Origin: Agrobacterium vitis
GTDB taxonomy: Bacteria > Pseudomonadota > Alphaproteobacteria > Rhizobiales > Rhizobiaceae
Direction of reading: 5' to 3'
NCBI RefSeq assembly: GCF_014926405.1
Contig: NZ_JACXXJ020000003.1
Location: 1,409,001 to 1,473,000, forward strand
Length of the DNA: 64,000 nt
Made by a program: the position numbers and the translations under genes. Shown here one piece after another: positions 56,216-63,403 of the stretch; position 1 is the first letter of the stretch; every line of letters begins with the position of its first letter. Below the pieces are notes generated by a model. The model was given only the letters and a program-made list of their open reading frames with translations, did no database searches and was not told the DNA's origin.

Positions 56216-56258
56216 AGTTTTCTCCTCTCCAAAACGTCACTTTCGCGTGCTCGGGTCA

Positions 56259-56650
56259 TCAACGAATACGTGTGGGAAACCCGTAGAGATTGGCGGGATT
56301 TTTCCACATGATATCTTCGATCGTATGCGGCGAGCCGACGGCTTCAACAAATCGCTCCACAAGACCCGAACAAGATAACGGGCGCCACGGGAGGGGACAT
56401 CCGGCCCGAAGTGGCTTTCATGCGGAGGGGGGTGTGGCCAGTCACTACCCCATACGCATCGGCTGGGACAGCGATCAATCAAGGCTGAAAGCCAGTCCGG
56501 ATCTGGTTCGATATTCAACGGCCGATCCGGCCTTCTATAAGGCGACGACAGTTTCACCCAGATGTGTTCTGCTTCAAGAAGGCGCAGCAATGCCCTTCCC
56601 TTTTCATCTGATGGACGGGCCTGCCCGTAAAGACCATAATGATCGATGAC
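56259..56650 (-). pseudogene. Amidohydrolase (PDC hydrolase-like), C-terminal remnant
   Basis: The fragment reads VIDHYGLYGQARPSDEKGRA then IWVKLSSPYRR and CVWGSDWPHPPPH, typical of the amidohydrolase_2 family that includes 2-pyrone-4,6-dicarboxylate hydrolase. The frame then changes, and the real tail (LVERFVEAVGSPHTIEDIMW, then NPANLYGFPTRIR) ends at TGA 56261-56259. The N-terminal part is gone: family sequence stops exactly where the IS21 end begins at 56651. It is dead by truncation and frameshift. Confidence 0.82.
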
Positions 56651-56663
56651 TGTCGGAATGCAA

Positions 56664-56756
56664 ATTCCGAGACAATCCGCCCCCTGATTCCGAAATGATC
56701 TCGCCCCTCCATTCCGAGAAATAGTCGCCCCCTTGTTCCGAGATGATGCCGCCCCC
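56664..56756. repeat. IS21 left-end array of four 23-24-bp repeats
   Basis: Units resembling ATTCCGAGA-N-AT-N-CGCCCCC begin at 56664, 56687, 56711 and 56735, that is, every 23-24 bases. Multiple end repeats are the IstA binding sites of IS21 elements. There are no unique spacers, so this is not a CRISPR. The element's outer end is probably TGTCGGAATG at 56651. Confidence 0.7.
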
Positions 56757-56830
56757 TTTGGCAGGGATGTGGTGTGGGAGTTCTGCCGGTGTGAAGTTCC
56801 TTCCGTCGATGTTGACGAGGAAGGAACGGG

Positions 56831-57400
56831 ATGCCTGCGGAGAGACTGGAATGGCGCGTCCGGCGTGCCGGGCTGGATTATCACGTCGAGATCGAACGGC
56901 ATTATTATTCGGTTCCCTATCGCTTTGCCCGCGAGCAAGTAGAGGCGCGCATCACCGCCAATACGATCGAGATATTCCACAAGGGCGCGCGGATTGCCGC
57001 TCACCGCCGCTCGAGCGGTAACGGCAAGCACACGACCATCCCCGATCATATGCCCTCGGCGCATCGTCGGTTCGCCGACTGGACGATCGAACGCATTCGA
57101 CGCGAAGCCTCAGCCATGGGGCCGGATGTCGACCTGTTGTGCGAGCGCATCCTTGCCGACCGGCCGCATCCCGAGCAGGGCTTTCGCGCCTGCCTTGGGA
57201 TTATCCGCCTTAACAAGAGCTTCGGCCGCGACAGGGTCAATGCCGCTTGCGCCCGAGCGCTGGAGATCGGGGCCCGGACCTATGGTTCGGTGCGCTCCAT
57301 CCTCGACAACGACCTCGACCGGACGGCGAGCTCGAATAGATCCGCCTCGCACGAACCGATCCACCACGAGAACATCCGCGGACCTCGCTATTACCACTAA
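56831..57400 (+). pseudogene. istA: IS21 transposase IstA, C-terminal third
   Basis: A 189-residue fragment from PAERLEWRVRRAGLDYHVEI to NIRGPRYYH, with HYYSVPYRFAREQVEAR and PEQGFRACLGIIRLNKSFG. A full IstA has about 500 residues including a DDE catalytic core and a helix-turn-helix; both are missing here. The terminal repeats lie almost directly before it, so an internal deletion joined the left end to the last third of istA. It ends 12 bases before istB, as in intact elements. Confidence 0.8.
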
Positions 57401-57412
57401 GGAGAACGAAGA

Positions 57413-58064
57413 ATGCTTGCTCATCCAACACTTGATCGACTGAACGCCATGGGCTTGGCCGGCATGGCCAAAGCCTTCGGCGAACTCGTCGCCAACGGCG
57501 AGGCCGAACATCTCTCGCATGCCGAATGGCTCGGATTGCTGCTCGAGCGGGAATGGAGTTCCCGTTACGACCGCAAACTTGCGGCGCGTCTCAGGTTCGC
57601 CAAGCTTCGTCATCAGGCGACCCCGGAAGATGTCGATTATCGCGCCGACCGCGGCCTCGACCGTGCGCTCTTCATGAAGCTGCTCGGGGGCGACTGGATC
57701 GGTGCTCACGACAATCTGGCCATATGCGGACCCTCGGGCGTCGGAAAGAGCTGGCTGGCTTGCGCTCTCGGTCAGAAGGCTTGCCGTGACGATCGTTCCG
57801 TTCTCTATCAGCGGGTCCCACGACTCTTTGCCCAGCTCGCGCTCGCCCGCGGCGACGGCCGATACGCTCGTCTGCAACGCACCCTGGGTCATGTCCAGCT
57901 CCTGATATTGGACGACTGGGGCCTCGAGCCGCTCAACGAGCAAGCCCGTCACGATCTGCTGGAAATCCTCGAGGACCGCTACGGCCGTCGTTCGACGATC
58001 ATCACCAGCCAACTCCCCATATCCGCCTGGCACGGTGTCATCGGTGAGCCAAGCATCGCAGACT
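57413..58064 (+). pseudogene. istB: IS21 helper ATPase IstB, 3'-truncated
   Basis: The AAA+ helper of IS21 transposition, recognisable by LDRLNAMGLAGMAKAF, Walker A (GPSGVGKSW), Walker B (LLILDDWGLE) and SQLPISAWHGVIGEPSIAD. After that motif the family sequence (normally an ILDRLVH-type tail) is replaced by cassette DNA near 58064, although the frame stays open to 58108. About 25-30 residues are missing. AAGGAGAACGAAG gives a good site before the ATG. Confidence 0.85.
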
Positions 58065-58082
58065 GCCGCTATTATCGACGGG

Positions 58083-58565
58083 GTGGTGCATTATGTAACC
58101 ATCATTGACCCGCGCCACGGCCTTGCGGGTCAGCGTCTTGAGCTGGTGTCAGTCCAATCCGGACGCGGGCTGGCATTTGTTGTTGTGCGATTACCTGACG
58201 GACGCCGCCGTTCCATTCGCCGGTCGGTCACCGACCTTGTAACCGCTTCGCCTGACGCGCGGAGCGAGTTGGAGTCGGCGCCTCGCATCAGCGTTCGAAC
58301 CCTGCTCACATTGATGCGCCATTTAGACAGCATGGTAACCTCCCGTTCCAAGGAGGTGATTCGCGATGACCGTGCAATCGAATCCGTACCGGTATCGTGT
58401 AGCGTCTCAGTCCCTCGTAAAGCTTCTGACCCCCAATACGACACTCCCGCATCCGTGGCCCGATCTGCCGCCAGAAACGCAGAAACAAATCGCTCAAAAG
58501 TTTGCACCCCTGTTGATGCGGATGCGGTCGATCCGCTCGTCGGCAAAGGTGGATCGACATGCTGA
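58083..58565 (+). CDS. DUF5372-like protein of the recombinase cassette
   Basis: The core VVHYVTIIDPRHGLAGQRLELVSVQ, then RLPDGRRRSIRRSVTDL, resembles DUF5372 proteins, small beta-rich proteins of unknown function often found just upstream of large serine recombinases. I take the GTG at 58083, because the frame upstream of it belongs to istB. The frame stays open to 58565 and overlaps the next small gene by 200 bases in another frame, so the last 65 or so residues may be an accidental extension of a normal protein of about 95 residues. Confidence 0.5.
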   Translation: MVHYVTIIDPRHGLAGQRLELVSVQSGRGLAFVVVRLPDGRRRSIRRSVTDLVTASPDARSELESAPRISVRTLLTLMRHLDSMVTSRSKEVIRDDRAIESVPVSCSVSVPRKASDPQYDTPASVARSAARNAETNRSKVCTPVDADAVDPLVGKGGSTC

Positions 58566-58578
58566 GAGCGACGAATAG
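58366..58578 (+). CDS. Small cassette protein, 70 residues, unknown function
   Basis: MTVQSNPYRYRVASQSLVKL starts at 58366, preceded by AAGGAGGTGA, the best ribosome site in the window, at ideal spacing. The protein is basic and Pro-rich (TLPHPWPDLPPETQKQIAQK) with no family I recognise. It overlaps the recombinase start by 20 bases. The strong site argues that this small gene is translated at high level and matters for the cassette, perhaps as a control or directionality factor; that role is a guess. Confidence 0.6.
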   Translation: MTVQSNPYRYRVASQSLVKLLTPNTTLPHPWPDLPPETQKQIAQKFAPLLMRMRSIRSSAKVDRHAESDE

Positions 58579-60664
58579 CCCGGACGAGCGTATCACTGCC
58601 GAGCATCGCGGCAAGCTCGCCTACATTTATGTCCGCCAGTCTTCTGTAAATCAGGTGCGGCATCATCAGGAAAGCACGCAGCTTCAGTATCGTCTCGTCG
58701 AGCGTGCCGTCGGCCTTGGCTGGCCACATGAACGCGTGCACGTCATAGATGACGATCTGGGCAAATCCGGTTCGGGCAGCGTTGAGCGAGAGGGCTTCAA
58801 GAAGTTGATCGCGGAGATCGGGCTGGGCAATGCTGGGCTTGTCATCAGCCTCGACGCCTCCCGGCTCGCCCGCAACAATCGTGATTGGCATCAACTCCTT
58901 GATCTGTGCGCATTGTTCGGCGTTATTATCGCCGACGGAGAACGGCTCTACGACCCTTGCGCTTACCACGACCGCCTGTTGCTCGGCCTATCTGGCATCA
59001 TGAGCGAAGCGGAGCTGCACCAGATCAGGCAGCGCCTTCATCAGGGTGAGCGCCAGAAAGCGGCACGCGGCGAATTGCGGCTTTGCCTTCCTGCTGGATT
59101 GGCTCATGACCGCTCGGGCCAGATCACTCTCAATCCCGACGAGGAAGTGCAGGCAAGGCTCGACCTCGTCTTCGGCAAGTTCCGCGAATTAGGAAGCGCG
59201 CGGGCTGTGATGCGCTATCTGCGAAAGGAGAATTTGCCGCTACCAATACGCCCGCTGCGTGGTCCGGCGCCGCACGAAGTCGTGTGGCAAGAGGCCACCA
59301 ACCCACGCGTGCTCAGCATTCTCCATAATCCCGGCTATGCTGGAGCCTATGTCTATGGTCGGCGGCGGCAAACTGGCGGGCGCATTCGTCAGGACGTGTA
59401 TCGGCCGCGGACGGCCAAGGTGCCCATCGAAGACTGGGAGGTCTGTTTGCAAGCTGCCCATCCTGGTTACATCGGCTGGGAGGAGTTCATGGACAACCAA
59501 CGACGACTGGAGAACAACATCAACCACTACGAAGCCGGCCATACGGGAGCGCCACGCAAGGGCGCCGCACTGCTGCAGGGCATCGCTGTTTGCGGGCGGT
59601 GCGGTCGGCGGATGAGTTTGCGCTATAGCGGCCCTGCAGGGAACTATCCCGTTTACACATGCCGTGCCGATCGCGGTCACGACGGAGGGCCGTTATGTCA
59701 GGAGGTACGCGCTCTGCCCGTCGACGCACGCATCGAAGGCATTCTACTCGAGGCTCTGGCCCCGGACAGGATCGCTATTGCCATCGCCGCACTGGGTCAG
59801 ATCGAAGAGGAAGCACACCAGCTTGAGCGTCAATGGGCATTGCGGCGTGAACGGGCGCGCTACGAGGCGGAAAGAGCCCGACGCCAATACGACGCAGTCG
59901 AACCCGAGAACCGCCTGGTGGCCCGGTCGCTGGAGCGAGCATGGGAAGAGAAGCTACGTGCAGCCGAGGCCATCGAGCAGGACTATGAACGGTGGCGCTC
60001 CGACGAGCCCCTCGTCCTGAGCGAGGCAGATCGCGACGGGTTACTGGCGCTCGGGGAGAACCTGCCTGGCATTTGGCGTGCCCCATCGACCACGGCGGCC
60101 GAGCGAAAGAGCATCCTGCGCCTCATCATCTGCGAGGTCGTTCTCGACCAGAAACGGCTGCAAGGACAGGTCTGGATCAAGATCCTGTGGCAAACGGGAG
60201 CGACAAGCGAGCACTCTGTCCAAAGGCACGTTCATACCTATGGCGACTATATCGATGTCGATAAATTACGAGCGCGCGTGGCGGAGCTGAACGCTGCTGG
60301 CAAAATGGATAAGGAAATCGCCTCATCGCTAAACTCGGAAGGCTTTCTTGCGGCACGGAATTGCGCCTTCAAGGGTGAGAATGTCTGGCTCTTGCGCAGG
60401 CGTTGGGGCATTCCAACCGTCAAAATCAACGGCACGAGCTCCAATCCCGTCAGGTGGCCGGACGGAACCTACTCCGTTCAAGGGGCAGCCGCGGCCTTGG
60501 GCATCACACCACAGGTCATCTTCGATTATCTCGCCCGCGGATGGCTCAAGGGACACCAACACGCCAAGGGCCAGCCATGGCAGATCGAATTGACGCAGGA
60601 CCAGATCGACATCCTGCGCGCTCGCGCTCAACGCAATAGACGATCGAGGAAACAGGCATCATGA
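58559..60664 (+). CDS. Large serine recombinase
   Basis: A 701-residue site-specific recombinase. The N-terminal resolvase domain has [11 protein letters not shown] with nucleophile Ser 28 and [15 protein letters not shown] with catalytic Arg residues. A recombinase domain follows ([39 protein letters not shown]). The zinc ribbon C-x2-C (CGRCGRRM) pairs with Cys residues in [15 protein letters not shown], and a coiled coil lies at about residues 420-475. A C-terminal helix-turn-helix-like part follows. It is complete and probably active. It uses short att-like sites; those were not located exactly. The stop codon lies within the right istB fragment. Confidence 0.9.
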
Positions 60665-60824
60665 AATCATTGGTGACGCCAAGATGACGACCGCTCTACT
60701 CGATCGTTTGACCCATCGTTGCCATATCCTGGAAACCGGGAACGACAGCTTCCGCTTCAAAGCCAGCTCGGCCGCAGCAGCACACAAGAGAGGAGAAAAA
60801 GCCAATCCCTTGACCAAAGCCTGA
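60657..60824 (+). pseudogene. IstB C-terminal tail of a second IS21 subtype
   Basis: The frame [20 protein letters not shown], then [15 protein letters not shown], is the typical end of an IstB of the [11 protein letters not shown] subtype, ending at TGA 60824. It differs from the truncated istB at 57413, whose subtype ends with a different tail. It begins at the same conserved H-x-x-IG(D/E) motif at which the left istB is broken off, overlapping the recombinase stop. Confidence 0.75.
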
Positions 60825-60846
60825 TCAGAAAACCATATTCAGAGGT

Positions 60847-60890
60847 GGCTCACTTCTCGGTGGAAAAACCGGCTCAGTTCCGCGTGGAAA
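60847..60890. repeat. IS21 right-end repeats
   Basis: Two 20-bp copies, GGCTCACTTCTCGGTGGAAA at 60847 and GGCTCAGTTCCGCGTGGAAA at 60871, identical at 16 of 20 positions and 24 bases apart. They match the terminal-repeat style of the second IS21 subtype and are unlike the left-end array, supporting a chimeric origin. Confidence 0.65.
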
Positions 60891-61107
60891 CCAACAATAG
60901 GCGGTTTCAACGATATGACGGCGTTTTTCGGCAGCGTCGGCGCGCAGTGGCATGGCAAAACCTAAGTGATACAGATCAGTATCACTTGCGCAGAACCTGA
61001 GCATTGGTCAATGTGCGATCGCGAGGATTTCGCTCCTACCCACTTCCGCATGGGGAAAAACCGCGTATTCTGAAAGCCCGTAAGCAATCAAGACTTTCGG
61101 GGGTTCC

Positions 61108-61784: not shown

Positions 61785-61995
61785 AGAAATTTCCCTTAAA
61801 ATTCAGGGGCCGTCGATCTGTCGCAAATGTTCGGCAGACCGTCCCAAAACTCTGCGGATAGCTAATTATCTGTACCTGTTGGCGCGGGGCGCTATGGAAC
61901 GCAAAATCTCATAATCTCGATCCCGAGAGAGGAATGCGAAGCGTTTCCCCGGTATGTCGGACTTTCTGAGTTCAAAATTGACGAATATCGGCCCC

Positions 61996-63403
61996 TCACG
62001 CCGGAACAGCGGCGATGAGGCCGGGAACGCCGACGAGAGTGATGGCTCTTCTAATATTATAGGCATCATAAAAGCACCGTGGCACATCCATTGCTTTATC
62101 GTTGGGAATGGATGCTCGACGCTTTCACGTCGCCGGTCGAGAACGTTAGGTCTCGCCGTCAAGCGTGCCGCCATGCGATCAAGGACGGCCTCGTTCTCAA
62201 GTCGGGAGACGCGGCGATAGGGGTTGTTCGTGCAGCGTGGCTTTAGGGCGCAGCCCTTGCAAGCGTCCCTGTTGCAATAGTCGAACTTCACGTTCTCGCG
62301 TGACTTGCTCTCGTAGCGTGGGTAGAGAACCTGCTCGGCCGGGCAGATATAGACATCCTTGTGCGGGTCGTAGCGGAACGCCTCCTTGGTGAAGAAGCCC
62401 TCGCGTGCGGCCGGTCCGCGGATCGGCTTGGGAATATAGGCACTGATGCCGGCCTTCTCACAAGCCTCGATGTCCTCGATCTTGAAGTAGCCGCGATCGG
62501 CCACCGCCTCTATTTTGTCAACGCCGAGCGTTTCCATGGCAGCTTCGACCGTCGTCGCCAACAAACCTATGTCGAGGACCTGGTTGCACACTTCCTGTTC
62601 GACGATCAGCTTGTGCTTCACATCCACGGCAAGCTGGATATTGTAGCCGACGCCGACCTTCGTCATGCGGGCCATGGCGCGAGCTTCCGGATCTGTCACC
62701 GAGATCTGGTCCTCGCCGGTTTTGTCTAGTTCATCCAGTAGCGCCTTATGGCGATCGCGCTTGCCTTTGATGGCCGCGATCTTCTCCGCAAGTTTGCCAT
62801 CGCCGCGACCAGATCCATTGCCCAGCTTCTTTTCGTCGATGTCACTTTCATCGAGCCACTTCATGTAATCGAAAAGCTTCTCGTCGGCCTCGGTGATGAA
62901 CTTGGTCACTGCGCCACGGGTGAAGTTGCGATCCTTGTTGTTGACCGCTTTGATCCTCGTGCCATCGACCGCCAGAAGTTCTTTTCCGAACAAGTCGAGC
63001 TGCGGCATAGGATGACGAATTCCCGGAAGACCTGCCGGAATGCGGACCAGTTGATCCTGCGGAAGGCGGCGATGCTGCGAAAATCCGGCTTCAGGTGGCG
63101 CAGAAGCCAAATCACCTCGATGTTGCGATGAGCCTCGGCCTCCAGCCTCCGGCTCGACCGCACCCTATTGAGATAGCCGTAGATGTATATTTTAAGCAAA
63201 TCCGACGGATCGTATCCAGGACGGCCGGTGTCTTTCGCCGCCACCCGCACAAACCCGGCGGCAACAAGATCCAGCCCTTCAACGAACGCCTCGATGAAGC
63301 GAACCGGGTTATCGGGACCAATATAATCCTCAACTGCTTCCGGTAGAAGCAGCATCTGCGAGCGATCAACTCCTGATAAATGTGCCATGGCAAATTCTAT
63401 CAT
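61996..63403 (-). pseudogene. IS1182-family transposase, frameshifted with internal deletion
   Basis: The N-terminus (LSGVDRSQMLLLPEAVEDYI; YDPSDLLKIYIYGYLNRVRS) starts at 63403 or 63388. Near 63005 the frame changes to QLDLFGKELLAVDGTRIKAV, with the first catalytic Asp, and continues through VADRGYFK and the zinc-like Cys cluster CNRDACKGCALKPRC. After HGAFMM, about 15 residues are lost together with the frame, and the tail (AYNIRRAITLVGVPGLIAAV) resumes to TGA 61998-61996. One frameshift plus one small deletion make it inactive. It lies upstream of the Nudix gene and opposite in direction. Confidence 0.85.

Follow-up and report, generated by a model that had tools for sequence, protein, structure and literature searches.

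A serine recombinase element between two istB halves

Within a window of 64,000 nucleotides from Agrobacterium vitis (the whole stretch analysed; contig NZ_JACXXJ020000003.1, positions 1,409,001 to 1,473,000), we studied a 2.6 kb element that encodes a large serine recombinase and lies inside istB, the helper gene of IS21 insertion sequences. The window is part of a 1.59-Mb contig, and named Agrobacterium vitis strains encode an identical recombinase. The window genome carries a single copy of the element and also holds nine full-length and one 5'-truncated istB gene of another subtype, all apparently unoccupied. The locus comprises the following features (ORF, open reading frame; aa, amino acids; attL and attR, left and right attachment-site junctions; attP, attachment site of the element; L numbers denote compared loci):

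56831..57400, plus strand: 3' portion of the left IS21's istA (Pfam Mu-transpos_C_2), with an internal deletion relative to T60/94 and NCPPB 3554
57413..58047, plus strand: 5' portion of an istB gene (..SQLPISAWHGVIG|) that stops at the GA core (Pfam IstB_IS21, E 3.1e-58)
58046..58047, plus strand: left core dinucleotide GA (attL), from comparison of attL, attR and the uninterrupted allele
58048..60674, plus strand: element between the cores, 2,627 bp (the same 2627 bp in L009, L034 and L148)
58083..58565, plus strand: DUF5372 ORF (Pfam PF17342, E 4.2e-6, 27.1 bits, cut-off 25)
58366..58578, plus strand: 70-aa ORF (phmmer match in 43/47 two-ended elements)
58559..60664, plus strand: 701-aa large serine recombinase (Pfam Resolvase, Recombinase, Zn_ribbon_recom)
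60236..60661, plus strand: C-terminal extension of the recombinase, residues 560-701 (helix-turn-helix region and MerR/Xis-type winged helix, weak scores)
60655..60674, plus strand: right attP arm, which mimics istB ..HEIIG
60675..60676, plus strand: right core dinucleotide GA (attR)
60675..60824, plus strand: 3' part of a second istB subtype (PF01695 model 199-237, E 1.7e-10)
60825..60896, no strand assigned: remainder of the right IS21 as far as its likely right terminus (homology to L105, L106 and L108 by blastn)

The IstB_IS21 ORF to the left of the element spans 57413-58105 (Pfam PF01695, E 3.1e-58), and the right-hand PF01695 match begins at 60657, thereby taking in the element residues HHEIIG. 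The exact junctions were obtained by comparing the occupied locus L034 with the uninterrupted locus L106, the flanks of which are identical at 272/308 and 193/200 bases. Here, the uninterrupted site (attB) reads TTCGGC GA CGCC, attL reads TTCGGC GA GCC and attR reads TTGGT GA CGCC; GA represents the sole bases common to all three, and the crossover lies in this 2-bp core without a longer target duplication. Because attB, attL and attR have only GA in common, the left-hand residues PSIAD and the right-hand residues HHEIIG are element sequence. The initial annotation had placed both breaks at conserved H-x-x-IG(D/E) codons of istB and had proposed aligning empty istB sites to define the crossover bases. 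That alignment yields the GA of the D/E codon; the IG|D/E step does belong to istB, whereas the element contributes HHEIIG and PSIAD.

The right istB piece is 95.6% and 96.8% identical in DNA sequence to the uninterrupted istB genes in L105 and L106, respectively, and homology of the window to L105, L106 and L108 ends at 60896 in all three blastn comparisons. Across 38 distinct loci, the right and left arms of the element match the istB 5' half-site at a mean of 7.7/15 and 7.0/15 bases, compared with 3.7-3.9/15 for random 15-mers, and the istB 3' half-site matches the right and left arms at 5.3 and 6.3 of 15 bases. Inside the element, the DUF5372 frame is open from 58035 and offers GTG codons at 58083 and 58086, while the stop codon of the recombinase gene falls within the right attP arm.

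The recombinase combines Resolvase, recombinase and zinc-ribbon domains in one protein (Pfam), with the N-terminal catalytic domain at residues 21-172, and residues 6-549 gave structural matches to serine integrases. Across 47 two-ended loci, the element measures 2549-2837 bp, and the DUF5372 protein has a phmmer match in all 47, whereas the 70-aa ORF matched nothing in Pfam or NCBIfam. We considered three ORFs in the 2.6 kb and found neither phage nor conjugation genes between the ends, which ruled out an integrative conjugative element or prophage. An IS607-type serine transposon was likewise ruled out: IS607 TnpA is reported to have an N-terminal DNA-binding domain, unlike the 701-aa large serine recombinase of the window with its N-terminal catalytic domain, which matched no IS607 model at a threshold of E 0.01.

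Insertion at one codon step of istB

A recombinase scan of genome contigs yielded 77 distinct loci, the majority in rhizobia and other Alphaproteobacteria, to which 15 copies from plasmids were added. Eight distant or fragmentary loci of these 92 were set aside (L050, L068, L073, L074, L076, L078, L083 and L085). The 84 loci kept, including L084 with a best segment of only 35% identity, comprised 83 with at least one testable end and gave 130 ends in total. Left ends of 21 loci were placed by strings read by eye (19 + 2), the rest by regular expression. In a profile search, istB abutted the core at 116/130 ends, at profile positions 210-232, and at most ends the break falls exactly at 223|224, the IG|D/E codon step. 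In the control, istB was found at the break for 4/3000 random positions in the same loci, which led us to reject chance placement. The idea that the cassette targets a conserved istB site is thus strongly supported. The initial annotation had also suggested inspecting the flanks of related recombinases for istB halves, and these are present on both sides in 43 loci. Sites were read codon by codon in 41 loci and cover several istB subtypes, including SQLPV..WHEVIG|DPT, NLSFSEW..VFG|DAK, NRSVGEW..VFG|DPV, QPFGEW..VFP|DPA and others. Towards the outside of these 41 sites, TGG recurs at -20 and GC at +17/18.

The core dinucleotide correlates tightly with the orientation of the element. Elements with a GA (43 ends) or AA (3 ends) core lie in the sense direction of istB in 46/46 cases, and those with TC, CT or TT cores are antisense at 68/70 ends. 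At the two exceptional ends, L040.R and L045.L, the istB subtype has TC on its own sense strand at this position, as seen in intact LGSERLTG genes. Because both exceptions fit the target's own TC, these counts indicate that the core sets the orientation. On a quick tree of 52 recombinase rows, GA and TC were exchanged at least five times; for example, L010 has a TC core among GA relatives and is antisense, and L048 has a GA core among TC relatives and is sense. The orientation of Bxb1 is reportedly fixed by its core dinucleotide, as Ghosh et al. are said to have found in 2003; the elements described here behave in the same manner, as natural experiments. As a side observation, the attL cores of L016, L021 and L026 are AA, with GA at attR in L021 and L026 and no right flank in L016, which may reflect integration with a mismatched core.

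Several genomes bear signs of movement. Mesorhizobium sophorae harbors three identical copies (2624/2624 bases) in three istB genes of one genome. In Rhizobium altiplani (R. altiplani), the recombinase gene (2,103 bases) is identical on nine contigs but differs in its flanks, and because five of these contigs hold the right flank and four the left, the genome should contain at least five copies. Furthermore, L030 shows a right-end|left-end, attP-like junction between one copy and an adjoining tandem copy of 83% identity. From these sequences we infer that the element moves or has moved recently.

In a Sphingobium locus (L164), an intact annotated istB adjoins an interrupted one (187-954 and 1448-2050), indicating that host and victim elements coexist there.

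A compact element that probably moves on its own

We favour, at a probability of roughly 93%, the reading that this is a compact, probably autonomous element that enters istB by site-specific recombination through its large serine recombinase and thereby splits the gene. According to this model, attP, composed of the right arm, the 2-bp core and the left arm, would recombine with an attB formed by the conserved istB codon stretch W..(V/I)(F/I)(G/P/A)-(D/E), and cleavage at the GA of the D/E codon would divide the IS21 helper gene. The core dinucleotide would fix the orientation, such that lineages that swapped GA and TC would have inserted in reverse. Splitting of istB should disable the host IS21, which would otherwise offer a landing site both dispersed and expendable for the cell. 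A directionality factor would probably be needed for excision to a circle, a candidate being the MerR/Xis-type domain at the recombinase C-terminus, a fold that was assigned with weak scores and is not clearly an excisionase; the DUF5372 and 70-aa proteins are alternative candidates. Finally, the window copy would later have lost its matching left flank through recombination between element copies in different IS21 copies.

Several observations weigh against this model. Fourteen of the 130 ends miss istB: L014.L (a frame-shifted istB), L030.R (the tandem copy), L079.L (a short istB-like remnant by eye), L061.R and L075.R (one insertion whose left end is lost), both ends each of L044, L060 and L063 (other transposases), both ends of L058 (no Pfam match) and L062.L (a HerA-like gene). 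Moreover, the ends are partly non-independent, as L009/L148 (the window's insertion), L019/L020 and L061/L075 form pairs, and five istB loci carry an AA, CT or TT core at one end. For this flexible multi-domain protein, the fold matches reach only low whole-chain TM-scores (up to 0.25 by query length), and the nine R. altiplani genes sit at contig ends, where an assembler may merge repeat copies. Homologous cassettes in unrelated targets, which the initial annotation had named as evidence against an istB specificity, do exist in a few cases (L044, L058, L060, L062 and L063). All five belong to the istB clade: L063 splits an IS630 transposase, as seen from both sides, L060 splits IS630 by reading alone, L044 splits an IS5-type transposase, one side being assigned by profile and the other by reading, and L058 and L062 split other sequences. 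Most other identified targets outside istB are mobile-element genes again.

Origin of the chimeric window copy

The two istB halves around the window element belong to different subtypes, with PF01695 on both sides, confirming the earlier description of a cassette between halves of two different istB genes. For the left half, the counterpart is an intact istB of Sinorhizobium meliloti (S. meliloti) GR4 (97.2% identity over 211 aa), which has its own natural tail DPTYADAILDRLVHNAHRI and continues DPTYADAILDRLVHN; counterparts of the right half are uninterrupted istB genes from the window's own genus. In strain CG118 (L034), an element identical at 2627/2627 bases resides in an istB whose halves match each other. 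From the left core rightwards, as far as the window extends, CG118 and the window are 99.95% identical, whereas left of the core blastn gave no match over 60 bases. The window's left region recurs at 100% in the NCPPB 3554 genome, and CG118 has only distant (~70%) paralogues of it plus 64 bases at the junction. Conversely, the left region of CG118 was not found at high identity in the window genome. Because the identical chimera is present in NCPPB 3554 (L009), on a closed plasmid of T60/94 (L148) and in the window, it is not an assembly artefact, and we rejected this explanation. By reading, five of 43 two-ended loci are chimeric (L009, L148, L051, L040 and L045), corresponding to four events, as L009 and L148 represent the window's own; L051 joins two subtypes, and L040 and L045 join halves in opposite orientation.

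Judged from these alignments, the chimera most likely arose when two element copies residing in two IS21 elements recombined. This origin, already put forward in the initial annotation, is supported by the matching left half in CG118 and by the other natural tail in S. meliloti. Among the uninterrupted istB genes compared, NLSFSEW and NLAFGEW share one tail type and SQLPVSAWHGVIG pairs with DPTYADAILDRLVHN, and no intact istB combines both tail types. It is also possible, if distinctly less probable, that the recombinase itself produced the chimera by acting from attL or attR on another attB or attL, in place of homologous recombination. The flank change does sit at the left core, and the inverted halves of L040 and L045 and the mixed subtypes of L051 would suit such a reaction. 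However, an exchange anywhere within two identical 2.6-kb copies yields the same product, and none of the 13 istB matches in the window genome is the reciprocal product.

Distant relatives in other mobile-element genes

A further set contained 51 loci, of which seven repeated the same place and 14 were set aside when the ORF finder missed the recombinase motif (L143-L146, L149, L153, L186, L187, L190-L192, L201, L203 and L204), leaving 30 that were examined (L150 by annotation). These relatives are mostly 30-43% identical, where identity is stated. In 13/30 loci, a mobile-element gene is split, as seen from both sides:

L074, L132, L133, L134, L135, L138, L184: IS66 TnpC split
L130: IS66 TnpB split
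L150: IS21 IstA split at about residue 254
L152, L196: group II intron reverse transcriptase split at residue 147/148, in two different introns
L181: IstB split at the Walker A region
L131: tyrosine recombinase gene split

In L074, L131, L132, L134, L135 and L138, one side of the pair was identified by reading the translation. L134 and L135 show no difference across the 4,962 bases compared and represent one insertion, so that the 13 loci correspond to 12 events. Six more loci provide one-sided evidence, for an IS3-type (rve) transposase at L073, L136, L137, L139 and L140 and for istB at L180, which falls inside the istB clade of the recombinase tree. The remaining 11 have no assigned target or lie elsewhere (L078, L129, L141, L142, L151, L182, L183, L185, L189, L193 and L202). 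Because L182 borders a nucleoside hydrolase gene and L202 a peptidase gene, insertion into mobile elements is not a universal rule. On a quick tree of 45 recombinases (without L060, which has a broken frame, L189, L193 and the repeats), the clades largely correspond to targets, namely istB, the main IS66 TnpC group, IS3 and group II intron reverse transcriptase, with L184 (IS66 TnpC) standing apart from the other TnpC elements. The notion of an element parasitic on mobile elements is therefore supported and widened by distant relatives that split other mobile-element genes, although istB, the target originally proposed, is not the sole one.

We consider it quite likely that the elements form an old and large family of hyperparasites, the subclades of which would have specialised on conserved codons in genes of other mobile elements (IS21 istB/istA, IS66 tnpC/tnpB, IS3-type, IS630, tyrosine recombinase and group II intron reverse transcriptase), would often have been retargeted, would be self-contained through the fused MerR/Xis-type domain and would restrain their hosts. 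Such parasites of parasites may keep their host elements in check.

As an alternative, the recombinase could have a broad specificity for short GA/TC-centred motifs, with istB overrepresented owing to the abundance of IS21 and its tolerated loss. The few copies in other genes (L044, L058, L060, L062 and L063) agree with this view, and multi-targeting serine recombinases are described in the survey of Durrant et al. 2022 (PMC10083194). We nevertheless regard broad specificity as unlikely, given that 116/130 ends lie at one step of one gene family and that each distant clade mostly stays with one other gene. Least credible of all is the view that certain IS21 elements carried the cassette along as a passenger when they spread, its istB location being inherited and not targeted: the A. 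vitis copies (window, L009, L034 and L148) do have the element and the right flank in common, but a single clade spans several istB subtypes in both orientations with halves matching on both sides, near neighbours on the recombinase tree occupy different istB subtypes, and identical copies in three istB genes of one genome contradict carriage by one IS21 lineage, which we rejected.

Two side observations concern these relatives. In S. meliloti GR4, the relative that splits istA (L150, 1763-5062) has a neighbouring intact istB that is close to the window's left istB half. In addition, group II intron maturase genes lie near istB-targeting elements on two rhizobial plasmids (L147, 5606-6865, and L157, 526-1776), and a distant recombinase clade splits such maturases.

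Relation to known systems

The elements resemble large serine integrases (PhiC31, Bxb1, SPbeta YokA and the Listeria integrase) in their domains, the 2-bp core, the dependence of orientation on the core dinucleotide and the fold over residues 6-549. Unlike serine integrases of phages and integrative elements, they comprise 2.6 kb without phage or conjugation genes, occur in several copies per genome, target mostly genes of other mobile elements and, in the window, carry a MerR/Xis-type C-terminal extension. The group II intron RmInt1 homes into ISRm2011-2 of Sinorhizobium meliloti, where poor splicing is described to block spread of the insertion sequence (PMC5894124). Both are rhizobial mobile elements homing into an insertion sequence; however, RmInt1 is a retroelement that splices, whereas the present elements use a DNA recombinase and have no known means to remove the insert from mRNA. 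For IS110/IS1111 elements, individual insertion sequences are described as each choosing their own site with a seekRNA (PMC11187229). In contrast to their RNA-guided DEDD transposase, the serine recombinase presumably reads DNA arms.

The component kinds, a large serine recombinase and an element homing into an insertion sequence, are already known. Their combination, tiny serine-integrase elements that form a family specialised on transposition genes, was not found in our searches of open-licence papers. The main text of Durrant et al. 2022 (PMC10083194), which surveyed integrase targets, contains neither 'IS21' nor 'insertion sequence', and some of these elements may appear in its supplementary tables. 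Our data suggest that serine integrases would act on insertion sequences as RmInt1-type introns do, by homing into the transposition genes of other mobile elements, targets that occur dispersed and in multiple copies and that the cell can do without. The elements could form a control layer over IS21, IS66, IS3 and group II introns. Because natural attB/attP pairs number in the dozens within the family, which also includes natural core swaps accompanied by reversed orientation and clades that differ in target, site recognition by serine integrases and its change become directly testable. In current annotation, such elements are hidden as a 'recombinase family protein' beside a broken transposition gene.

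Surroundings of the window element

The left IS21 of the window lacks ~978 bp of istA compared with T60/94 (L148) and NCPPB 3554 (L009), the break falling at a 14-bp direct repeat (56849-56862). Because this deletion adds to the split istB, the left IS21 is damaged in both genes. Just 5' of istA (56660-56780), several TTCCGAGA..GCCCCC-like repeats were noted by eye, perhaps the terminal repeats of the left IS21. Near the left IS21, a minus-strand ORF (56237-56680) resembles by eye the C-terminal part of an amidohydrolase and may be a gene interrupted by the left IS21. On the other side of the element, at 61866-63403, a transposase is encoded in two overlapping minus-strand frames (414 aa and 165 aa) and is perhaps frameshifted.

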